Shown: positions 33,647 to 48,843 of the stretch, one piece after another
How positions within the stretch are numbered: the stretch's first letter is position 1
Layout: every line of letters starts with the position of its first letter
Assembly (NCBI RefSeq): GCF_000214375.1
Contig: NC_015578.1
Span: 2,976,001 to 3,040,000 of the forward strand
Length of the DNA: 64,000 nt
Source: Treponema primitia ZAS-2
GTDB lineage: Bacteria > Spirochaetota > Spirochaetia > Treponematales > Breznakiellaceae
Reading direction: 5' to 3'
Notes under the pieces: model-generated
What the model saw: the letters and a program-made list of their open reading frames with translations, nothing else
Databases searched by the model: none
Told to the model about the DNA's origin: nothing
Made by a program: the position numbers and the translations under genes

Positions 33647-34636
33647 CTACAGTTTACCCTGATTTGCCCGGTAGAGGCGGTTGACCTCATCCTCCAGATA
33701 GAGGAGGGAACCCCGGTCCCCATGATAGCCGTATTGAATAGGCTTATGGCTCTGCATACAGGATCGCAGGATCAAATCCTCCTCCGGGGAGACGAAACGG
33801 GTATAGTCCGGGGGGATGATCAGGCGGTCACAGTTTTTAACCAGTTCAGAAAGACTTTCTCCCTCTTTAAAATAGGCAATTGCGATGGGATTGTTTAACT
33901 TGCAATACTGCCCACAGGCGGTGAGGATGAGCTGGGCAAAACGGCGGCTGGCGCAGGCAATGCCCAGCCTGGCATCCCCGGGAATAGCCGCAAGATCCAA
34001 GGCAGTACCCGTGGCAATGGCCATAACAAGCCGGGCCGGCTGGGCGCCGGGGGACATCTTTTGAGACAATTCCCCAAAATGGGTAGGGGTAGTTACCACT
34101 AGATCCGCCGCAGGCTCGAAACGGTTTGGCCCTCTGAGCACATCCTCCAGAAGGAATCTGGTAAGCTCCGTATGGGGCAGCCGCATGAGCTGTGCGGACA
34201 TGGCGCTGAGGGTTTCCGGGCAGCAGTCCACCGCAGCCACGGTTACAGAAGTGACCTGTTCCTCCCGTTCCCGAAGCTTTAAGTCCAGGTATATCCGCAC
34301 ATCATGGGGTGAGAAGGAAAGCTCCTGCATACGGTCCAGAAAGGTGTCAATGGCCTGCATAGCCTGAACCTTGGACCCCTCACCCTTGGTTTCCCTGGGT
34401 ATATTGACAAAGGTACCGCTGCCCCGCGCTTTTTTGATGAGCCCCAACTGTTCCATCATGTCATAGGCGTGTTTGATAGTGCCCTGGGATATCCCGGTCT
34501 CGACTGCCAAACCGCGGACCGTGGGCAGTTGGTACCCCGGGGCTATGCTTCCGGATACAATTGCACGGGTAATCTGATCCACAATCTGCTGGTAGATAGG
34601 TACATCCACTGAATCGCTGACAGATATCTGAACCAT
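33647..34636 (-). CDS. GntR-family regulator with unusual C-terminal domain
   Basis: A 329-residue protein. The N-terminal winged helix (VPIYQQIVDQITRAIVSG, TVRGLAVETGISQGTIKHAY, GSGTFVN) is clear. The C-terminal 220 residues are neither FCD nor UTRA; ADLVVTTPTHFGEL and RLVMAIATGTALDLAAI suggest an alpha/beta ligand-binding fold. It lies inside the glutamate-fermentation cluster, converges on abgB and has in its own 5' region the same AT-rich palindrome as the glmS promoter. It is the likely regulator of the cluster, and probably of itself. Confidence 0.85.
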   Translation of the reverse strand: MVQISVSDSVDVPIYQQIVDQITRAIVSGSIAPGYQLPTVRGLAVETGISQGTIKHAYDMMEQLGLIKKARGSGTFVNIPRETKGEGSKVQAMQAIDTFLDRMQELSFSPHDVRIYLDLKLREREEQVTSVTVAAVDCCPETLSAMSAQLMRLPHTELTRFLLEDVLRGPNRFEPAADLVVTTPTHFGELSQKMSPGAQPARLVMAIATGTALDLAAIPGDARLGIACASRRFAQLILTACGQYCKLNNPIAIAYFKEGESLSELVKNCDRLIIPPDYTRFVSPEEDLILRSCMQSHKPIQYGYHGDRGSLLYLEDEVNRLYRANQGKL

Positions 34637-34694: not shown

Positions 34695-34833
34695 GCTATT
34701 TATCCAAAACCGTCAAGGGCTAAACTATTATAAAAAACCTCATTCCAGCCCTTTTTACGGATATTTTACTAGCAATATTATCAAAAATAACTTACAATAA
34801 TCCCATAATTTTACAAGCGTAAAAGGAGACCAT

Positions 34834-36992
34834 ATGAAAAAACGAATCATTTGGCCAGCCATACTCATGGCTGGATTATTAGTGCTTGGCTTAGCCGGTT
34901 GTACGGACAGTAACAACCCCGGCATCAGCACAAGTTTCAATGCAGATCTTGCAAGCCTTGGGGTAAGCTACATCCGCCCCCCCCCCCCCCCCGGTCCGAA
35001 TTAGGCGAAACACCAATCCAGGTAGACCTGGATCCGTCTTTTAACACCAATACCGTCAGCTATACGGTTTTTGTTCCCAACTCGGTTTCTTCAATATATG
35101 TTGATGCCGTACCGGCTGATATAAAGGCAATCGTGATCCCATCCTCGCCTAACCCGGTCGAACTGGAGCCGGGGCAGGTCAAAACCATCACCATAACGGT
35201 AAGCGCCGAAAGTGGAAATACTAAACAATATATCATCAGAGCTACCCGCCTGACGGCAACCCAAACAGACGCTACCCTGCGTACCCTGACCTACAATGGG
35301 GTGACAGTTCCGGGCTTTAGCCCCACAGGCGATACCGAGTATACGTTTACAGTACCCTATGCCACAGAATCGGTCACCCTGGCTGCGACACTGGTGAATA
35401 CAGCAGGCGAAGTGATTCTTCCCACACCTAATCCGGTTGAGCTTGTTCCGGGGGAGGAAAAGACCATTACCGTGACAGGCAAGGCAGCATCCGGAGATAC
35501 CAAAGATTATACCATCAAGGTTACCAGGCTTCATGCCAGCGCCAACCTGAGTTCCATAACAATCAATGGTGTTCAGGTGCCGGGCTTTAGCCCCACAGGC
35601 AGTAGCTATACAATTACGGTACCCTATGCCGGCAATGAAACAATCACCGTGGCAGCCACCGGCAATGCAGAAGGTTCCACCCTGGATTATTCCATCGACC
35701 CTGACAGCCCGGTTGCCTTGGTTGCGGGGGTGGAAAAGACCATTACCGTAAAGGGCAAATCCGTATCCGGTGCCATTAAGGAATATACCCTTATAGTGAC
35801 CCGGGCTTTGCCCAGTGATAATGCCAAGCTCAGCAGCCTTTCCATTAGCCCCTGGGCATTGAGCCCTCCTTTTGCCCCCGATACCCTAGAATACACCGCA
35901 TCGGTTGCCAACGGGATTACTTCCCTTACGGTTAGCGCCTCAAAGCAGGACCCCTTGGCTGCCGCGCCGACTTTACCAACGAATCCGGTTTCTCTTAATG
36001 TGGGGGCCAATACCATCCAGGTGACTGTCCATGCTGAAGATCCGGCGATCGCACAAACCTACAAAATCGTGGTGACCCGTAGGCCGGAGGATCTGAACAA
36101 CGCAAAATTAGCCACCTTGTCTGTCAATGGCGTTCCCGTGCCGGGCTTTGACCCCGATATAGGAGGCCCCTATGCGGTTAATGCCGCGTATAGGATAGAT
36201 ACAATTACCCTTGCTGCCCAGACAGAGGAAGAGAAAACGGGCGTTACCTTGAGCGGAGATACTCTTGACACAGCGCATCCCTTTGCCTCAGAAGTGTCGG
36301 AGGGTGGTACTAAAACCTTCACCGTAAACTCCGCCAAAGGTACTGGCACTAAGACCTATACGATCGTCGTAACACGGCTGCCTGCGAGTACCATCAATAC
36401 CCTGAGCAGCATAACGGTGAGCGCAGGTACTCTGACCCCAAAGTTCACCAGCACTGGTAACTTTTATTCTGTTGAAATTCCCTACTTAACCCCCAACGTT
36501 ACGGTAAACGCGGTGAAAACGAATGCGGAGGCAACAGTAGTGCTTTCTGTCAGTAATGGCCTTGCCATCACCAATGGGGTAGTTACCCTGAATGCCTCCA
36601 CACCGTATCCCTTTACGGTTACCGCAACGGTCACCCCGGAAAGCCTAGGCGCTCCCGAACGGTACTACATTGAGTTCCGGCAGCAGGGCCAGCTTAGTGT
36701 GACTATCACCCAGCCCGATGAGGTGATCGATCTGGCCACGGATATCGGAAATAATCTCTCTATTGCTGGCGGTGGTTATATCACCGTTACTGCGGATATT
36801 TCGGGTATTAGTAATTTTGAATGGTATGTGGATGGAACCAGTATTGGTCAAGGGTTTGATAATTTTAATGGTACTTATTCTGTCAATATTACTGCTGCAT
36901 CTGTTGGCGTTGGTACCCACACGGTACTGCTTCAGTTCTATAAAGACGAAATCTACTACGGTAGTGAAGTTTCCTTCAAAGTAGGGAAATAA
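34834..36992 (+). CDS. Cadherin-like-repeat surface lipoprotein, out of frame at poly-C (probable phase-variable gene)
   Basis: The ATG at 34834 has an AAAGGAG ribosome site and opens a lipoprotein signal peptide with lipobox LAGC. After about 48 codons the frame enters a run of 16 C (34977-34992), reads five prolines and stops at 35002-35004. The rest of the gene is in another frame, open to 36992. Adding one C or losing two C joins them into a 719-residue protein. The body holds about six domains of roughly 95 residues with the NGVxVPGFSP...YTITVTR pattern of cadherin-like beta-sandwich repeats, then a distinct C-terminal domain. As sequenced the gene is OFF. A homopolymer sequencing error is the main alternative. 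It is followed by two more lipoproteins. Confidence 0.85.
34977..34992 (+). repeat. Poly-C tract of 16 (contingency tract)
   Basis: Sixteen consecutive C inside the coding region, directly after the signal peptide and first short segment of the lipoprotein gene. Such tracts change length by slippage and switch translation on and off. Confidence 0.9.
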
Positions 36993-37000
36993 GGAAGGTT

Positions 37001-39493
37001 ATGATGAAAAAACACTTTGGTACAATAAGCGGCAACACGATTGCCCTTGCCGGTCTTTTCCTTGCGGCTATCCTGGGATTTGGGGCTTGCGCAAATCCCC
37101 TCAGTTCCTCCCCCGGGGGCGCCAAGCCCTCCGGCGTTAGCGGCGTGGAGATCAAAATAGCAAACGGGACTGAACGGACCCTGAGTCCCGATAATAAGTC
37201 CTTTACGAGTTATGATGTATATTTTTCCGATCGCAGCAACCCTGACTTCAAGGAAACCTATACCGGAACAACGGTCACCAAGAACCTGAGCCCCGGTACT
37301 TGGGACATCTATGTCTTAGCGTATGTAGGTAAAGTGCAATCCGCTTTTGGGTCTACATCATCGGTACCTGTATTTAATGGGCAATCAACAGGGGTAACCA
37401 TACAACTCAGTCCCATTAGTCCCTTTACCAGTCCCGGTGATAGGGGCTCATTTACCTATTCGGTGCAGTTTGATAAGCAGGGTGTGCAGGATTATCCCAT
37501 CCCCGGCGCTACACTCTCGCTTAGCCCGCTCTCCGGCATAAACAGCGCTTCCAAGAACTTGCTTAATGAGCCCAGCGGAACCATCCCCCTTGCCCCGGGA
37601 TTTTACCGGCTGTTAATACAGGTGGCGAACAACTATGGCATGGCTTCCCGGTCTGAAGTGGTACATATCTACGCCGGAAAGGATACTGCGGCGCTACCCA
37701 TCAGCTTTAGCCCTGAGGATTTTGGCCCCTTTGTCACTATTAATGGAACGGTAGAATTAGGCGGTCGAGATGATATTGTTGGCGGAAATATAGAATTGTA
37801 CGCAGATCTCACCTTCCCGTTTATCTCCAGCGCACGGGCGTCTATTGATCCAAAAACAGGCAACTGGACTGCCCGGATCAAGCCCTATGTTTCATCGACT
37901 CTCCTCTATCCACGGCTCTCTCTGCAATTTACCGATGGATCTTCCATTTCTACGGAAGATCCATCTGGCTTTGATGCATACAATTTCGGTGCCGATATCA
38001 TAGATGCTGGGTCAATAACTGTCCCGGATATCCATAAATATACCCTTAGAGGCGCCATCGACTTGTCCGAAATTGCGGACGCCGACATTACTCTTCCCAG
38101 TACTGTGTTGGTGTATATCCAACGGTCAGGCGTTATCCTTAATTATGCTTATCTCCCTTCCGCTAGGAACGGCAACTGGGAACTCGCCATTGCCTCCAAA
38201 GAGGATCTTTCAAGCACTGAAGTATCAATTGTCCTTTTGCTGAGTTCGGGTATTGTTTCCACAACTGAATACAGGACAGCCAAAATTACTGGCCCTGTAA
38301 CAACAGGTTTGAACTTTAAACCCAAGGTTATCACAGAGGACGGGACACCGAAGCTGACGATAGGCAGTAGTGGGCAGAGTACGTTCATCTTCAAGCCGGC
38401 TGGCAGTGGTTCCTATTCCCTGGGTGTTATTCCTGTTATAGACGGGGACGCTGCAACTTTGACCGGGATAGCCCCTAGCCCTGCAACAAATCTTGGTCGT
38501 TATATCCTAAGCGCAGGAACACTTTACTCAATTACGGTTAGCGGAACTGCTAATAGTAATTACACCATCGCGCTTGATGGGCAGCAGCTTAGAAGCAATG
38601 CGGATCTGAGTGACCTCGAAGTAGTAGGCGATGTAGACGGCCTCCTGACCCTCAACCCGGGATTCAGCGCCGGTATCACAGATTATGAAGTTTCGTATAC
38701 GCTTACATCCTATCATATCTTCGTAAACGCCACAGCGGATGATAGTAATGCACTACGCCTTTATATCACGAACAATGGCAGCTCTTACTCATACTCATCG
38801 GGCGAATCAATTTCGCTGTCGCCGGGAACCAATATCATTAAGGTAGAGGTTATCACGGAGGCTGGAAGGCTTAAGCCTTACACCATCACGGTAACCAGGC
38901 AACTGATGAGCCCAACCCCGACAGCCGACATAACCAGCGTCGCAAATGCCCCCGATTTGGGATATGTTTCCTTCTTCCTGACCAATAACCCTGTATACAC
39001 TAAAACCACCTGGAAGGTGTATGATGCGCCTACCGGAAACACGGAAAAACCGGGTGTAACTGCGGTAAACCTCGACTCTACGTTGTTCCTTATCGATGAG
39101 GCGTCTGTCACAGATTCGGTAACTTACTATGTTAGCGCCACCGAAGAAGGCGGTTTGGAAAGCGTCGGGCGTCTGGCACTCACCGTTTCCAACCCCGGGG
39201 AAATTAGCTCCCTTAGCTTTAATGGCGACATCGAGATTAGTTACGAGGGATCCTCTAGCCCCATTATAATCTCCCAGTCCGGTTCCGGTTATCTATCTAC
39301 AATTGACTTAAGTGTCTCCGGCGACTATGAAAGCTTTAGTTGGCGAGTGGACAACGTGAGTAACATTGCAGTCACTAACAGTATCACTCTGGATGCGACG
39401 GCTTATGAGACCCGAAACCATTTTGTTACCTTCAAGGGTGTCAAAGATGGCATACCCTATGCAAAGGAACTACCTTTCACGGTAGTTGAATAA
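37001..39493 (+). CDS. Large surface lipoprotein of unknown function
   Basis: An 830-residue lipoprotein. Signal peptide with lipobox GFGAC near residue 30, followed by NPLSSSPGGAKPSG. It is nearly all beta-strand in character and Ser/Thr/Gly-rich. One cadherin-like domain is visible at about 525-625 (LSDLEVVGD to YTITVTRQ), and the C-terminal domain (IDLSVSGDYESFSWRVDN) resembles the last domain of the preceding protein. It starts 8 bases after that gene. Probably a surface or periplasmic adhesin-like protein; the ligand is unknown. Confidence 0.85.
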   Translation: MMKKHFGTISGNTIALAGLFLAAILGFGACANPLSSSPGGAKPSGVSGVEIKIANGTERTLSPDNKSFTSYDVYFSDRSNPDFKETYTGTTVTKNLSPGTWDIYVLAYVGKVQSAFGSTSSVPVFNGQSTGVTIQLSPISPFTSPGDRGSFTYSVQFDKQGVQDYPIPGATLSLSPLSGINSASKNLLNEPSGTIPLAPGFYRLLIQVANNYGMASRSEVVHIYAGKDTAALPISFSPEDFGPFVTINGTVELGGRDDIVGGNIELYADLTFPFISSARASIDPKTGNWTARIKPYVSSTLLYPRLSLQFTDGSSISTEDPSGFDAYNFGADIIDAGSITVPDIHKYTLRGAIDLSEIADADITLPSTVLVYIQRSGVILNYAYLPSARNGNWELAIASKEDLSSTEVSIVLLLSSGIVSTTEYRTAKITGPVTTGLNFKPKVITEDGTPKLTIGSSGQSTFIFKPAGSGSYSLGVIPVIDGDAATLTGIAPSPATNLGRYILSAGTLYSITVSGTANSNYTIALDGQQLRSNADLSDLEVVGDVDGLLTLNPGFSAGITDYEVSYTLTSYHIFVNATADDSNALRLYITNNGSSYSYSSGESISLSPGTNIIKVEVITEAGRLKPYTITVTRQLMSPTPTADITSVANAPDLGYVSFFLTNNPVYTKTTWKVYDAPTGNTEKPGVTAVNLDSTLFLIDEASVTDSVTYYVSATEEGGLESVGRLALTVSNPGEISSLSFNGDIEISYEGSSSPIIISQSGSGYLSTIDLSVSGDYESFSWRVDNVSNIAVTNSITLDATAYETRNHFVTFKGVKDGIPYAKELPFTVVE

Positions 39494-39504: not shown

Positions 39505-41775
39505 ATGAAACTATTTGGCAATAAACAACGGGCCTTAAGCCCGATAACTTGCGCAGCAGGCATAGTTCTTTTGGCAGGACTACTCGCCCTTACAGGATGC
39601 GCCAATCCCCTGAACTCCCCGGCCGACAACACCGTCGGGCAGGGCCTGGGCCTGGTTACCATCACCATCGGCGAAACCGGGGCGAGGAACCTATATCCGA
39701 ATCCGACTGGGTTTACCAATTATGAATTAAGTTTTGCACCCATTTCAGGACCAGCATTCTATGGCGCAATCCCGGCTTCGGTAGCAAAATCGGACAGTAG
39801 TTTTCCACCGATTTCGCTTATTCCCGGCACATGGACAATTACCGCCAAGGCTTATAACGGATCGACCCAGGTCGCCGAAACCGCTGTGGAGGTGACCGTT
39901 GTGGCGGGCGAACTTGTAACGAAGAATATCATCCTTAAGCCCATCACAGGGGCGGGGGCGGGGACCTTCGATTATGAAGTCACCAACGCGGATGACGTAG
40001 ATTTTGATGATGGCAGCGAATTAACGCTTAGCGATCTGAGTGGGAACCCAATATATACATATAATCTATCATCAGTTCAGTCAGGCACCGACTCGGTTCC
40101 TGCGGGTATTTACGACCTGAGCATAGTGATAAAAAAGGATGGGGGAATTACGGGCACTACTGAAGTGGTATTCATCTACCCCGGCCTAACCACTGTAGCG
40201 CATTTTATCTTTGGCAATGGTGAAATATACTCCGGAACCACCAGTAATCCGGCATTTGTAGCCACCAGTCTTTCAAAGACTGAAGTAGTACAGCCAAGCA
40301 TTACTTTCGAATTGAAAAATGATACCGAGTTAACTGGTGCCACCTGGAAAGTATACGATGCGGAAGACGACGGTGATGATATAACGGATACTGTAGTCCC
40401 AACAATTGAGTCCTCAAACAAACTTACCTTGACCGCTGTTTCGAATAATATTACGGCGGGTGACTATTGGGTTACAGCACAAGCACCCGGCAAGTTTGAA
40501 AGTGCTACGCGGGTAAAACTCACGGTGGAGCCCAACCCGCTCCAAAACGAAACTTTCACCGTTGTTGATGGCATCGGCGACCCTGGATTGAACAACATTT
40601 ATCTGGAAGGAGGTTTTGTTAAGATCGGCGATGATGATGGCGGATTTATTGACCATAATCCCGATACTGATCCCGCCTATAAACCCTTGGCGGTATTCCT
40701 AGGCCTGACCGGGGTAGAGCCCGACGATCAGATAGTTTTTGACGAGTACGGTAAAATTTTAAAGCTCACCAAAGTTGACATAACTTACGACATAACGTTC
40801 GCTGTTGATGACAAATATCTACCTGCCATTGCAGACGTGTTAACACTTACCGGCAATGCAAGTAAATCTTTCGAAGTCACCGGAGACGCTTTGACTGGCA
40901 AGACGGTTATACTTGACAGTACTTCAAGCCCCACGTATAATTTTTATGGAGTTTCGGTATTACCGTACGATACTAACGACGTAACGATATCCGCAGAGGA
41001 CGATGATACCGACGGAAAGGTGGTCACCCTACTTGATGGGGGATCTGCTGATGCCACGGTGTCGGTCTTAGATGAAGCTGTAGACAAGCTTGTTCTCGGC
41101 ACTAATGCTCCAAGCGCTATCTCCAACGAGAAATCCGGCTTGGTAATTGACGTAGGCACTAATGCCGGCATAACAATCACCGCCACGCAACCCACCACGG
41201 TGGTGACCGACAAGCTTGCCACTGGTACGGTTACCGTGGATGGTTATAGTACTGCTGCGATTACTATTGATGGCGTGTCGATAACCCCGGTTGGTTACAC
41301 AGACGCAATTGTTACCAAAACGGATTATTACACGTTAGAGCTTGACGCAGGCGATACCACCGCTACGGTGGCTATCGAATACGACAGTGCCATAACTGAA
41401 CTTACCCTTGTTGATACCAATCTCGAGGCTATCTCCAACGCCAACACGGCCACGGTAATCAATGTGGGTTCAATAAGCGGCGTAGAAATCACCGCCGCGG
41501 TTGATACCACGGTGGTAACCACCGAGCTTAGCGACAGCAATACAGTGGTCCTTATAGGAGACAAAACCTTTACGCTGTTGGTACTAGACGATGGTGGTTA
41601 TGAGGACGATCCCACTCCCGGAACAGTGACTGGGAGTACTAACGGCTATGTGTATACTTATCTTAACGATAATGGTAATGAAAACACTGAATTTGCTCCT
41701 ATCGACGATGATAGTTTTAGCCTGACCAGTGATTCCGGGACCGTTACGGTGACAGTCTCCGATATCACTCCCTAA
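39505..41775 (+). CDS. Large surface lipoprotein with internal repeats
   Basis: A 756-residue lipoprotein: signal peptide with lipobox LTGC followed by ANPLNSPADN, nearly the same mature start as the previous protein (ANPL). A stretch common to both is GATWKVYDA / TTWKVYDA. The C-terminal third has repeated units (LVLGTNAPSAISNEKSGLVI; LTLVDTNLEAISNANTATVI) rich in Thr, Val and Asp. It starts 11 bases after its neighbour and ends before a strong terminator, closing a three-gene operon of exported proteins. Function unknown. Confidence 0.85.
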   Translation: MKLFGNKQRALSPITCAAGIVLLAGLLALTGCANPLNSPADNTVGQGLGLVTITIGETGARNLYPNPTGFTNYELSFAPISGPAFYGAIPASVAKSDSSFPPISLIPGTWTITAKAYNGSTQVAETAVEVTVVAGELVTKNIILKPITGAGAGTFDYEVTNADDVDFDDGSELTLSDLSGNPIYTYNLSSVQSGTDSVPAGIYDLSIVIKKDGGITGTTEVVFIYPGLTTVAHFIFGNGEIYSGTTSNPAFVATSLSKTEVVQPSITFELKNDTELTGATWKVYDAEDDGDDITDTVVPTIESSNKLTLTAVSNNITAGDYWVTAQAPGKFESATRVKLTVEPNPLQNETFTVVDGIGDPGLNNIYLEGGFVKIGDDDGGFIDHNPDTDPAYKPLAVFLGLTGVEPDDQIVFDEYGKILKLTKVDITYDITFAVDDKYLPAIADVLTLTGNASKSFEVTGDALTGKTVILDSTSSPTYNFYGVSVLPYDTNDVTISAEDDDTDGKVVTLLDGGSADATVSVLDEAVDKLVLGTNAPSAISNEKSGLVIDVGTNAGITITATQPTTVVTDKLATGTVTVDGYSTAAITIDGVSITPVGYTDAIVTKTDYYTLELDAGDTTATVAIEYDSAITELTLVDTNLEAISNANTATVINVGSISGVEITAAVDTTVVTTELSDSNTVVLIGDKTFTLLVLDDGGYEDDPTPGTVTGSTNGYVYTYLNDNGNENTEFAPIDDDSFSLTSDSGTVTVTVSDITP

Positions 41776-41823
41776 CCTGTGCCGCCCGGCGCACCATAGC
41801 CGGGCAATGAAAGCTTAGACTTA

Positions 41824-41858
41824 GCCGCATCCGCCAATCGACGGATGCGGCTTTTTTT
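41824..41858 (+). terminator. Terminator of the lipoprotein operon
   Basis: GCCGCATCCG and CGGATGCGGC form a perfect 10-bp stem around an 8-base loop, followed by seven T. Confidence 0.95.
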
Positions 41859-43424: not shown

Positions 43425-46400
43425 ATGAAAACTATCGATAATTTAGAGATTAAATTAATAGACAAACTCCTTGGAGAGATAAAACAGGAGACAAAAATTT
43501 CCATAGTTGCGTCATGCTTCTCCATATATGCGTTTGAAGTTCTTAAAAAGCAGTTCGATACTATTGCTGAACTGCGTTTTATTTTTTCTTCTCCCGCGTT
43601 TACTGCATCACCTCCGGATTCAGATACCCAACAGCTCATGAGAGAAAAAGACCTGGCAGGAACTGAATTTGAATTTGGCCTTAGAAATAAACTGACCCAG
43701 GCGGCTATCGCGAAGGAATGTTCAGAGTGGATAAAAAACAAAGTGAAATTTTATTCAAATACAACCAGAGAAAATATGCCTGGATTTATGGTTTTTGAAA
43801 ATGGCGAATCTTCCTCCTCCTATACACCAATTCAAAATTTTACAACAGTAGATTTGGGATATCAAAAAGGTAATGACGCTTATACCCTGATAACGCATGC
43901 TGAGGCGCCCCAAAGTATACGCTTTTTACAGCAGTTTGATAAATTATGGAAAGATTCAAAAAAAACGAAAGATGTGACTGATCAGGTATTAGCTGCTCTT
44001 AAAACTTTATACTGTCAAAATTCGCCTCAGTTTGTTTATTATATTACGCTGTATAATATTTTTAAAGATTACCTGGAAGAATTATCCACTACCGAATTGC
44101 CCAATGAAAAAACAGGTTTTAAAAACAGTGCCATTTGGAGTAAATTGTATGATTTTCAGCGTGAAGCTGCGATTTCAATAATACAAAAACTCGAGCGCTA
44201 TAATGGCTGTATTTTGGCAGACAGTGTAGGCCTTGGCAAAACCTTTACAGCACTGGGAGTCATAAAATATTATGAAAGTCTCAATAAATCCGTTTTGGTT
44301 CTATGTCCAAAAAAACTGCATAATAACTGGAAAACCTTCAATACTAATAATGTTAATAACCCGGTATTCAGGGATCATTTGCGATATGATATTCTTTTTC
44401 ATACTGACCTTTTACGCGAAAGAGGAGAATCGGCTACAGGAATTGATTTAAGTTCCTATAATTGGGCCAACAACGATCTTATCGTTATTGATGAATCGCA
44501 TAATTTCAGGAATGGCGGAACATTAAATTTAAAAGATCCTAAAGAGAACCGTTATGATCGGCTGTTAAACAAGGTTATTAAAGGAGGAGTAAAGACAAAG
44601 GTTTTAATGCTTTCGGCGACACCGGTTAATAATAAATTTCAGGACTTGAACAATCAATTAAAGCTTGCTTTTGAAGGCCAAACTGAAGATATCAACACAA
44701 AATTGGAGTTTACGCATAATCAAGGGATTGATTATATTTTTAAACAGGCGCAAAGCGTTTTTGATAACTGGAGCAAGCGTCCCCCTGAAGAAAAAACAAC
44801 CGAAAGTCTGCTCCGGGCGCTCGATTTTAATTTTTTCAATTTATTGGACAGCGTTACTATCGCTCGATCACGAAAACATATTGAAAATTACTACAATTCA
44901 AAGGCCATAGGATTATTTCCCACTCGCAATCGGCCAATTGCTCACCACCCTGCCCTTACAAACGAAAAAAATATGATCAGCTACTATGAAATATATGATT
45001 TCCTGGAAAAATTAACGCTCAGTGTTTATATGCCATCAAATTTCCTTTCTTTAGATAAAATAACTAAATATCAGGAAGGAGCAGAGTATAAAAATAGATT
45101 GACTCTGGTTGGGCGTGAACTAGGCATACTCCAATTAATGAACATTAATTTGCTAAAACGTCTGGAGAGTTCCGTACAATCATTCTTTATTTCATTAACT
45201 CATCTCAAAGAATTGATCAACAACATGCTTAAAAAAATAGATGCTTTTGAAAAAACAAAATCGGGAGCTGACGTTTTCCTGGAAGACTTGCCTTTTCAAA
45301 CTAATGAACTTGATGAGGATGATGAGAACTCTGATTATTTTACCGTCGGTAAAAAGATTAAATTTTCACTTGAGGATATTGATTTAAAAAAATGGAAAAA
45401 TGCCCTGGGCGAAGATTTAATAATTTTACAAGCCTTATTAAATAAGATTTCTGTTATTACACCGAAACAAGATAATAAATTACAAACTTTATTGCAGGTA
45501 ATAGACGATAAATTTACAAACCCGATAAATAATGATAATAAAAAAATATTAATATTCTCTGCTTTTGCAGACACGGCGGAGTATCTTTTTCATCATATAG
45601 GAAATTATATTGAAGAAAAATATCATTTGCACGCAGCAATGGTTTCTGGTTCAAAAACACTGACAACAATACCAAAAATCAATGCAGATTTTAACAGCGT
45701 GCTCTCTTATTTTTCCCCACGTGCTAAAACCAAAGATATTGAGGATCCAAAATTAAGAGAAGAAGCTTTACAGAAATTTTTAAAATATCCAATTGATGTC
45801 CTTATCGGAACGGACTGTATCTCCGAAGGGCAGAACCTTCAGGATTGCGATTATTGCATTAATTATGATATACATTGGAATCCCGTAAGAATTATTCAAC
45901 GGTTTGGACGTATAGACCGTATTGGCAGTAATAATAATTGTATACAGCTAGTAAGCTTCTGGCCTGATTTGGATTTAGATGAATATATTAATTTGAAAGA
46001 ACGCGTAGAAAGCAAAATGAAAGCTGTTATTATTGCCAGTACTGGTACTTTAGAAGATAATCCTATTGAAGAAGAAAAAGGCGATCTTGAATACCGAAAG
46101 GCGCAGCTTGAACGTCTGCAAAAAGAAGTAATTGATATTGAGGACATGCAAACCGGTATTTCTATTATGGACTTAGGGCTCAATGAATTTCGTCTTGAAA
46201 TTCAGGAGTATTTTTCACATCATCGTGATATTGAGAAATTTCCCAATGGTCTTTTTGCTGTATTGGAACCTGATGAAGAACTAAAGCAAGGCGCTATTTT
46301 TATTTTAAAATACAAAGGCAAAAATATAGACAAACAAAACCGCCTTCATCCTTATTTTATTATATATATATCTGAAAATGGCGAGATTATTCATGATTAT

Positions 46401-46697
46401 TTATCATCGCCAAAAACATTAAATTTATTAAAAAAAATCTGCCAAAGCTCCTTCTCTTCACAGTCAACACCATGTACCGACTTTAGTCCAATTTCAAATG
46501 ATATTTTCGATATGTCACAATATTATTTACTGCTGGAAAAAGCAATATCATCTGTTATTGATACCAAGGCTGCTAAAAGCGATGTTAAAAGTTTGTTCAA
46601 TAAAGGCAAAACAACCTTTTTAGATACAAAAAATATCAATATAAAAGACTTTGAAATAATAAGTTACTTTATTATCAAAGGGAGAAGTTATGATTAA
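43425..46697 (+). CDS. SNF2-type helicase with N-terminal PLD-like region
   Basis: A 1090-residue protein, very AT-rich compared with its neighbours. Residues about 1-190 resemble the phospholipase-D-like region found at the front of some defence-associated helicases, but no HKD motif was found. The SNF2 motor follows: DSVGLGKTFTALG (Walker A, near 268), VIDESHNFRN (near 355), LMLSATPVNN (near 396), then IGTDCISEGQNLQDCDYCINYD and QRFGRIDRIGS (motifs V and VI, near 800-830). It would pump along or remodel nucleic acid using ATP. Its stop overlaps the next gene by 8 bases, so the two proteins are coupled. A defence role is inferred from architecture. Confidence 0.88.
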   Translation: MKTIDNLEIKLIDKLLGEIKQETKISIVASCFSIYAFEVLKKQFDTIAELRFIFSSPAFTASPPDSDTQQLMREKDLAGTEFEFGLRNKLTQAAIAKECSEWIKNKVKFYSNTTRENMPGFMVFENGESSSSYTPIQNFTTVDLGYQKGNDAYTLITHAEAPQSIRFLQQFDKLWKDSKKTKDVTDQVLAALKTLYCQNSPQFVYYITLYNIFKDYLEELSTTELPNEKTGFKNSAIWSKLYDFQREAAISIIQKLERYNGCILADSVGLGKTFTALGVIKYYESLNKSVLVLCPKKLHNNWKTFNTNNVNNPVFRDHLRYDILFHTDLLRERGESATGIDLSSYNWANNDLIVIDESHNFRNGGTLNLKDPKENRYDRLLNKVIKGGVKTKVLMLSATPVNNKFQDLNNQLKLAFEGQTEDINTKLEFTHNQGIDYIFKQAQSVFDNWSKRPPEEKTTESLLRALDFNFFNLLDSVTIARSRKHIENYYNSKAIGLFPTRNRPIAHHPALTNEKNMISYYEIYDFLEKLTLSVYMPSNFLSLDKITKYQEGAEYKNRLTLVGRELGILQLMNINLLKRLESSVQSFFISLTHLKELINNMLKKIDAFEKTKSGADVFLEDLPFQTNELDEDDENSDYFTVGKKIKFSLEDIDLKKWKNALGEDLIILQALLNKISVITPKQDNKLQTLLQVIDDKFTNPINNDNKKILIFSAFADTAEYLFHHIGNYIEEKYHLHAAMVSGSKTLTTIPKINADFNSVLSYFSPRAKTKDIEDPKLREEALQKFLKYPIDVLIGTDCISEGQNLQDCDYCINYDIHWNPVRIIQRFGRIDRIGSNNNCIQLVSFWPDLDLDEYINLKERVESKMKAVIIASTGTLEDNPIEEEKGDLEYRKAQLERLQKEVIDIEDMQTGISIMDLGLNEFRLEIQEYFSHHRDIEKFPNGLFAVLEPDEELKQGAIFILKYKGKNIDKQNRLHPYFIIYISENGEIIHDYLSSPKTLNLLKKICQSSFSSQSTPCTDFSPISNDIFDMSQYYLLLEKAISSVIDTKAAKSDVKSLFNKGKTTFLDTKNINIKDFEIISYFIIKGRSYD

Positions 46698-48843
46698 TTA
46701 TTTTAATTTAAACAAAGAATGTATTGTAAACGAGGAATCACCAAAAGATGAAATTATTACAAATATTAAGGATAATAATTATAAATTCGATAAATTAAAA
46801 ATAGACAGATTTAATGCCCTTGTTAAAACGATAAAGACCCTTGCCGTGTTAAATAGCGAAAATACCAACATTGAAGCCTTAAGTACATCTGAATTTGATT
46901 ATTCTGAGATTATAATACTTGAAATTGAATTAAATTATTATTCAGAAGTCAACGATTTTTTTCTGTTTGCCAATTTACTGGGCCGACATATGCCCAAACT
47001 GCTTGTTCTTTTGATTAAGTATGAAAATCGATATAAGATTATTGTTAATAAAGTACGCGAGAATAAAAAGAATAATCTTTTAACGGTAGTAGACGACATA
47101 CTCATTACGTATTGGATTTATCCGGACTCGCCTTCCGAAATATCAAAAGATATTATTTCTAAATTAAATATTAATAAATATCAAGCTGCTAATCTTTTTG
47201 AATTATATAAATCCCTTAATAATAATCTAAGACAATTCAAATGCAGGCACATGACTCTTTATTCAAACGATTTTTCTTATGTATTATCAAATATATTCAA
47301 ATTAAACACAGAAGATTGTGAATATTTAATTGAGTGTATTAAAACAAAATGTTTGCATGAGGTTTCAAGGCCTCCTTTGTCAAAAAAATATAGGGATATA
47401 TATAGTTCTCAAAATAACAGAAATACCATTGCGCGTATTTTCTATGACTATGAAGACGTTTGGTATATTCTTAATTATCATCCAGAGCTCAAAAACATTA
47501 TGCGTCGTATGGAAATAAATAATATGAGGGATCTTCTGGATTTTTCATATGAAAGAAGAAGAGAGAATCAACAACAGAAAACCCCATGGTGGTCATATAG
47601 CAATGATTCTGTAAATAACATAGAGGAAAAAGAGATAAGAGAGGTAAGCAAAAATACAATTAATCATATAATTAATTTAGATAAATCTTTAATAGAAGAG
47701 GCAATAGCTTTCGAAACAGGTATAGGCATAGGGCAAAATACTAATAAAGCGATTGAAAAATATCTTGATGCATTCGAATTAGGAATTAGAATTATTGACC
47801 ATATTATAAATACAGATACAATGGTTAAATTAGCTCAAAATATTTCAGTGAAATATAAGAATAAAAAAATCGAATCATTTGAATTATTGATTAAAGCATC
47901 TGAAAATGGGAATGCTAAAGCCATGTTATACCTTGGCCGGTATTATCTTGAAAGCGAGACAAAAGATTATGCTAAGGCAATTGAATACTTTATGAAGGCA
48001 ATTGCGCTGGGAGACGATAATGCCATAATTGAGCTGGCAAAATTATGCAAAGAAAATATTGATATTATTGAATACATTAACGATATAAAAATACTAATGA
48101 AAACAGCTGGTAAATTTGAAGATGGTATAAAATTAAATAAGGATTATGAAATTGCCTTTAAACTGTTCGAAAAGGCTGCAAATCTTGATGATGGAGAAGC
48201 GCAATACTCAGTGGGACGTTTTTATGAAAAAGGAATGTTTGTTTCAAAAGATATACAAGAAGCATTAAATTGGTATACAAAGGCATCAGAAAAACAAATC
48301 CCTTACGCCTTAGAAAAGATCGCATATTTTTTACAACATGGAGTGGCGGGCGAAAAGGATATTCAAAAAGCTAACCATTATTACAAGAAAGCGGCGCAAG
48401 GTTTTCAAAAAATGGCCGATCGGAATGATTCCAAGGCACAATATTTATTGGGTCAATTATATAAATACGGGATTGGCGTCAAAAAAGATATTCCTCTATT
48501 TTTGGAATGGAATGAAAAATCAACAGCAACTGGCTATAAGAAAGCTCAATATGAATATGGATATTCCTATGAACTGAAGGGAAATATTCCAATGGCTTTT
48601 GGTTGGTATAAAAAGTCAGCGGAACAGAATTATTCGAAAGCCCAATACAAATTAGGTCTTTATTATGAAGATCAGGATGAAATGGATGAAGCATTTAAAT
48701 GGTACTTAAAAGCCGCAGAAAATGGTCATATTGAATCCATGGAATCTTTAGCATTTTGTTATGAGAAGGGAGAAGGAATTGACAAAGATTTAGAAAAGGC
48801 TAAAGAGTGGTATTCGAAAGCAAAAAATATGAAAAAATATTGA
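46690..48843 (+). CDS. DUF4391-like N-terminus fused to Sel1 repeats
   Basis: A 717-residue AT-rich protein. Residues about 1-150 (IIILEIELNYYSEVNDFF, MPKLLVLLIKYENRYKIIV) resemble DUF4391, a small protein usually found after helicases of this kind in type III-like restriction loci. Residues about 150-390 are unrecognised. From about 395 to the end there are some seven to eight Sel1-type repeats (AKAMLYLGRYYLE, GEAQYSVGRFYEKGMFV, SKAQYKLGLYYEDQDEM), which make a helical protein-binding solenoid. No enzymatic motif was seen. The usual methylase and nuclease partners are absent. Probably the sensor or adaptor partner of the helicase; function unproven. Confidence 0.75.
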   Translation: MINYFNLNKECIVNEESPKDEIITNIKDNNYKFDKLKIDRFNALVKTIKTLAVLNSENTNIEALSTSEFDYSEIIILEIELNYYSEVNDFFLFANLLGRHMPKLLVLLIKYENRYKIIVNKVRENKKNNLLTVVDDILITYWIYPDSPSEISKDIISKLNINKYQAANLFELYKSLNNNLRQFKCRHMTLYSNDFSYVLSNIFKLNTEDCEYLIECIKTKCLHEVSRPPLSKKYRDIYSSQNNRNTIARIFYDYEDVWYILNYHPELKNIMRRMEINNMRDLLDFSYERRRENQQQKTPWWSYSNDSVNNIEEKEIREVSKNTINHIINLDKSLIEEAIAFETGIGIGQNTNKAIEKYLDAFELGIRIIDHIINTDTMVKLAQNISVKYKNKKIESFELLIKASENGNAKAMLYLGRYYLESETKDYAKAIEYFMKAIALGDDNAIIELAKLCKENIDIIEYINDIKILMKTAGKFEDGIKLNKDYEIAFKLFEKAANLDDGEAQYSVGRFYEKGMFVSKDIQEALNWYTKASEKQIPYALEKIAYFLQHGVAGEKDIQKANHYYKKAAQGFQKMADRNDSKAQYLLGQLYKYGIGVKKDIPLFLEWNEKSTATGYKKAQYEYGYSYELKGNIPMAFGWYKKSAEQNYSKAQYKLGLYYEDQDEMDEAFKWYLKAAENGHIESMESLAFCYEKGEGIDKDLEKAKEWYSKAKNMKKY

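Follow-up and report, generated by a model that had tools for sequence, protein, structure and literature searches.

A tract of 16 C residues (C16) in the genome of Treponema primitia ZAS-2, a termite-gut acetogen, is probably a translational simple-sequence contingency switch located within the gene that heads an operon for surface lipoproteins. This interpretation of the sequence was judged the best of those considered and is strengthened by a genome- and family-wide excess of long poly-C tracts before or within surface-protein genes, the presence in one genome of near-identical loci with differing tract lengths and the detection in another species of an ortholog without the tract. The putative poly-C network around this locus is a more interesting result than the locus itself. 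The C16 tract lies in a 64-kb stretch of DNA (the window; genome positions 2976001 to 3040000), whose numbering is used here except where genome positions are specified; the genome is a single contig of 4,059,867 bp.

The C16 tract (34977 to 34992, + strand) starts 143 nt after an ATG at 34834, upstream of which a ribosome-binding site, AAGGAGA, was recognized (34823 to 34829, + strand). The N terminus specified from this ATG is MKKRIIWPAILMAGLLVLGLAGC, inside which lies the lipobox LAGC. As assembled, the ORF (34834 to 35004, + strand) encodes a signal peptide with this lipobox, the first strand of domain 1 and a poly-Pro stretch, and translation is ended after 56 aa by a TAG at 35002 to 35004. 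The lipoprotein body, which has five cadherin-like PF12733 domains, occupies another frame (34995 to 36992, + strand) that is open for 665 codons up to a TAA at 36990 to 36992. A recount of the tract agreed with the sequence-only reading, in which sixteen C residues had been placed between the start, ribosome site and lipoprotein signal and a body in another frame. The same reading had assigned a 719-residue product both to the gain of one C and to the loss of two. Tabulation of tract lengths from 12 to 20 gave 719 aa for the gain (C17) but 718 aa for the loss (C14), with 720 aa for C20, and all of the remaining lengths gave products of 55 to 70 aa. The tract thus has the arrangement of a translational contingency locus, being situated in an ORF where its length sets whether a full-length or a truncated product is specified. 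No other run of C or G in the window exceeded 8 nt, and the chance expectation for a run of 16 on both strands of 4.06 Mb was ∼0.002 under a simple model; a tract of this length is beyond chance and slippage prone. The 665 open codons, the five PF12733 domains and the lipobox are those of an otherwise intact gene with a product predicted to be exposed. No solved structure matching the body was found in a sequence search.

The gene was found to lead a three-lipoprotein operon, as had been claimed. The second lipoprotein gene (830 aa; 37001 to 39493, + strand) starts after a gap of 8 nt and the third (756 aa; 39505 to 41775, + strand) after a gap of 11 nt. Each of these has its own ribosome site, the N-terminal part of the third protein is related to the second, and a terminator-like hairpin with a T run lies 3′ of the operon (41823 to 41852, + strand). 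Upstream of the operon is a divergent gene for a GntR-family regulator (33647 to 34636, − strand), and a further terminator-like hairpin, AAGGGCT-25 nt-AGCCCTT plus a T run, was detected between the divergent genes (34715 to 34756, + strand). This hairpin has a 7-bp stem, a 25-nt loop and a score close to the control threshold and could be due to chance or be the remnant of an attenuator. Elsewhere in the window (43425 to 48843), a gene for an SNF2/ResIII-type helicase is followed by one for a DUF4391 plus Sel1-repeat protein, and the pair looks like a candidate defence module.

An ortholog of the body was detected in Spirochaetia bacterium MS502-93 (L113 and L217). This 691-aa lipoprotein exhibited 35% identity to the body across the whole length, up to the last residue, and a matching N terminus (NADLASL.VS). 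The operon was also syntenic, with an 841-aa CAN-type lipoprotein encoded 11 nt after the ortholog, as in ZAS-2, and a fragmentary version of this gene pair was present in a genome of the same genus (G002). No poly-C tract was present within the MS502-93 gene, and alignment of the two proteins detected 17 extra residues in ZAS-2, YIRPPPPPRSELGETPI, exactly at the tract; the tract therefore occupies a loop inserted into the first domain. These comparisons bear on whether the locus is an ordinary pseudogene in which a single C expansion broke a gene that is now decaying. The frame is indeed broken as assembled, but no second lesion was seen in the 665 codons, homology extends to the ortholog's last residue, and neither the operon nor its ribosome site or signal peptide shows damage, making decay very improbable. 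In the MS502-93 operon, a C13 run was found 160 nt upstream of the ortholog's ATG (L113). The three frames after this run reach stops at +1, +93 and +161 nt, and the 161-nt frame crosses a terminator-like stem of 15 bp and its T run before ending at a stop that overlaps the ortholog's start codon as ATGA. With a C13 run in the leader of one operon and a C16 tract inside the gene of the other, poly-C accompanies this operon in both species, albeit at different positions.

For the preferred switch, replication slippage would alter the number of C residues, and lengths of 3n+2 (14, 17 or 20) would bring the lipoprotein signal and the cadherin-like body into one frame, giving a protein of about 719 aa, while at other lengths translation would end within about 55 to 70 codons. 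Prolines gained or lost between ON lengths should be tolerated because the poly-Pro loop is absent from the ortholog. In OFF cells, the ∼2 kb of untranslated message may, through polarity, lower the levels of the second and third lipoproteins; the sequence-only reading had also suggested an effect on these, but it goes beyond the evidence, as both genes have their own ribosome sites. The occurrence of slippage in living cells of the population, its reversibility, the surface exposure of the protein and the polarity effect are all features that we infer.

The length distribution of homopolymers in the ZAS-2 genome was then compared with that of related genomes. There were 22 C or G runs of 9 nt, 4 of 10 nt and 1 of 11 nt, and beyond these came 14 poly-C runs of 12 to 61 nt, among them the C16 tract. 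Given this distribution, the C12 to C61 runs are a separate population and not the tail of a random distribution. Only 6 poly-A runs of at least 10 nt were detected in the whole genome, and there were none of at least 12 nt. Across 35 related genomes of the termite-gut family, there were 658 C runs of 12 nt or more (C12+; median, 11 per genome) and 34 A runs of this length. The 23 genomes from other families of the order had 35 C12+ runs (median, 1; P = 3e-7 versus the 35 genomes of the family). The excess over A12+ runs and over the other families indicated that the C16 tract belongs to a C-specific population. Extreme loads of C12+ runs were observed in some termite-gut relatives, with 135 in the 2.5 Mb of G016, 72 in G019 and 55 in G028.

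The ZAS-2 tracts, gathered by a pattern search and regional sequence retrieval, were associated with surface-protein genes. Most of the long tracts precede lipoprotein or outer-membrane genes encoding List_Bact, InlB-B, Big_2, BspA-LRR or OmpA domains, and the majority of tracts other than C16 lie in 5′ leaders and not inside the main ORF. The sequence-only reading had suggested a search for similar tracts in related lipoprotein genes. Such tracts were found before many surface-protein genes, but paralogous cadherin-like lipoprotein operons of the same genome, which also have further lipoproteins after them (L111; genome positions 979000 to 995000), carried no poly-C tract. Another in-ORF tract within the cadherin-like protein family was not found in 200 family genomes. 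Two alike loci, L034 (C20) and L036 (C17), have poly-C ∼300 nt before genes of ∼165 aa; a YNCLYSKEL-like motif follows the tract in these loci rather than preceding it, and the L034 gene product had no Pfam match.

Two of the ZAS-2 runs were of extreme length. An open frame of 395 codons has a C61 run at its 3′ end (L035; genome positions 279759 to 279819), and a C40 run is present at L054 (genome positions 2822045 to 2822084). Both are probably artefacts of gap closing or assembly or else extreme slippage tracts, and they suggest that tract lengths were poorly controlled in this assembly. The doubtful lengths of these runs, together with the error-prone nature of long homopolymers in every sequencing method, raise the prospect that an assembly or cloning error affected the C16 tract, which is real in either case, such that the consensus is in truth C14 or C17, the gene was ON in the sequenced culture and its switched-off state is an artefact. 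We regard this as unlikely, though well worth weighing; the error would alter the recorded state only. A run of 14 to 17 C greatly exceeds the length at which tracts in other bacteria are known to be slippage prone, and tracts of this type are also present in relatives whose genomes were assembled independently. The earlier statement that the tract switches the gene off refers to one assembled length, C16, which is out of frame as assembled but whose consensus is perhaps one base wrong. The recorded OFF state is uncertain, a one-base assembly error being a real possibility that touches this state only, and even with 14 or 17 C as its consensus the tract should be hypermutable.

Comparisons between loci provided examples of differing tract lengths. 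Within one genome, L039 has C16 and L099 has C8 between near-identical flanks; L158 (C21) and L164 (C18) form a similar pair within one genome, with L215 (C15) close in similarity. For L150 (C22) and L191 (C20), only the downstream flank was common. Tract lengths modulo 3 were evenly spread over 90 loci (34/26/30). The differing lengths at near-identical loci are left unexplained by decoding slippage, whereby slipping of RNA polymerase or ribosomes on the C run would yield some full-length protein whatever the tract length, making the tract a constitutive dampener and not a switch. A series of identical proline codons can in principle be slippery, but tracts of 12 to 21 are not required for such an effect, and this mechanism was considered improbable.

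Many of the ZAS-2 tracts follow a motif reading NSLY(C/Y/S)NEL. In sequences picked by DNA similarity alone, mismatches to the consensus at codon positions 1, 2 and 3 numbered 27, 22 and 49, and this concentration at third positions indicated that the motif is coding. Control of promoter spacing or strength, as described for the tpr genes and tp0126 of Treponema pallidum, is a mechanism known in a related pathogen (PMC7864442), and several other ZAS-2 tracts follow a TATAAT-like sequence. The C16 tract begins 143 nt downstream of its ATG, however, and promoter control of this locus is extremely improbable. For the other tracts, a promoter reading was rejected, the TATAAT-like sequence being part of the NSLY(C/Y/S)NEL coding motif. 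After the tract, an element, CCGATAGGTTTACTAGGATATA, was found in 11 copies in ZAS-2 and 7 copies in G017 when up to 3 mismatches were allowed; the reversed pattern, used as a control, was absent from both genomes. One frame of the element reads PIGLLGY, and the other two usually stop at +2 and +18. A 5′ cassette comprising an NSLYxNEL-like leader, poly-C and this element was observed before lipoprotein or outer-membrane genes at L039, L042, L048, L055, L058 and L060 and also at L099, L126, L128, L147 and others. At L165 (G034), a C45 tract lies in the leader MTRNSLYHIDL, in frame to a stop that overlaps the lipoprotein start as GTGA.

The features of leader-type tracts were quantified in a discovery set consisting of the ZAS-2 genome, its genus and close loci. 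A frame gate, defined as two frames that stop in the first 30 nt and a third that stays open for at least 75 nt, was present for 39 of 90 tracts versus 12 to 14% in three controls (P below 1e-11) and for 29 of 73 tracts without copies of the CCGATAGGTTTACTAGGATATA element (P = 2e-8), and overlap of the leader stop with the start codon as ATGA was detected in 10 of 33 cases versus 10.4% (P = 0.0014); these small P values overstate the case, since the controls include operon-internal genes, the thresholds were chosen while viewing the discovery set and many of the loci share ancestry. A terminator-like hairpin between the tract and the main start was present in 9 of 31 cases versus 3.9%. An independent set was drawn from more distant genera (G006, G015, G016 and G019). 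The ATGA overlap was the only leader feature to replicate in this set (6 of 22 versus 7.1%; P = 0.004). Neither the frame gate (13 of 82 versus 10 to 13%) nor the terminators (4 of 22 versus 11%) differed significantly, and the leader pattern of the ZAS-2 genus was not clearly seen in the portion of G016 examined. The combined gate and terminator pattern is supported for the ZAS-2 genus and close relatives only.

Known phase-variable systems resemble different parts of this picture. Intragenic homopolymer contingency genes have been described in Neisseria (PMC5953494), Helicobacter canadensis (PMC2823697) and, for sortase-dependent pili, Bifidobacterium breve (PMC9187656). The ZAS-2 locus has in common with these genes a long homopolymer in the 5′ part of an ORF, a surface protein and modulo 3 gating; it differs in belonging to a termite-gut spirochete, in encoding a cadherin-like-repeat lipoprotein and in having its poly-Pro within a loop of the mature product. 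In Streptococcus gallolyticus pil1, the opening of a terminator by the ribosome depends on slippage within the gene for a leader peptide (PMC3894217). Leader-type loci, including that of the MS502-93 ortholog, look like pil1 in that the frame of a leader ORF would set whether translation reaches a terminator before a surface operon. The pil1 system has GCAGA repeats at a single locus, whereas the leader-type loci have poly-C, are many and often have a leader stop overlapping the start codon. The ZAS-2 locus is not of the pil1 type, as its tract is in the main ORF and there is no long C run upstream. The poly-G tracts of Treponema pallidum tprE/G/J/L and tp0126 lie in promoters and are about 7 to 11 nt long (PMC7864442). 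As with the ZAS-2 tracts, the homopolymer consists of the same base pair, the genes are for envelope proteins and the organism is a related spirochete, but the termite tracts are in ORFs or translated leaders and reach 12 to 23 nt or more, and C16 is neither in nor just upstream of a promoter. A variable homopolymer in the mRNA leader of an envelope-related gene is also found in Helicobacter pylori tlpB/hp0102, where a poly-G leader is targeted by the sRNA RepG (PMC8295292); control there is graded and exerted by the sRNA, while that proposed for the termite leaders is by reading frame. A search of literature with few subscription journals among its sources yielded no account of phase variation for Treponema primitia or other termite treponemes. 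The ZAS-2 locus appears to be a known kind of switch and the poly-C leader network appears to be undescribed.

We tentatively propose, as a plausible reading that falls somewhat short of probable, that termite-gut treponemes possess a genome-wide phase-variation network in which, with a leader that is conserved in part, an NSLYxNEL leader ORF, long poly-C, often the CCGATAGGTTTACTAGGATATA element, a terminator and a surface gene follow one another, with pil1-type attenuation and translational coupling at many loci. The leader ORF with NSLYxNEL would run into the tract, after which the open frame would read PIGLLGY, cross the terminator and end on, or fuse to, the surface-protein gene, and the other two frames would stop early. 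The ZAS-2 operon would be the in-gene case of this network and the ortholog's operon the leader form.

If true, mutualistic spirochetes of insect guts would have homopolymer slippage as a main strategy for generating cell-surface heterogeneity, in a setting to which the usual explanation, evasion of adaptive immunity, is inapplicable. Roles in attachment, phage escape or competition would become testable, and the tracts, 14 of them in a single cultured isolate and hundreds in the family, would supply a predictive list. Furthermore, for many of the "pseudogenes" and short ORFs in termite-gut spirochete genomes, the recorded sequence may be a snapshot of a variable gene at a single length.
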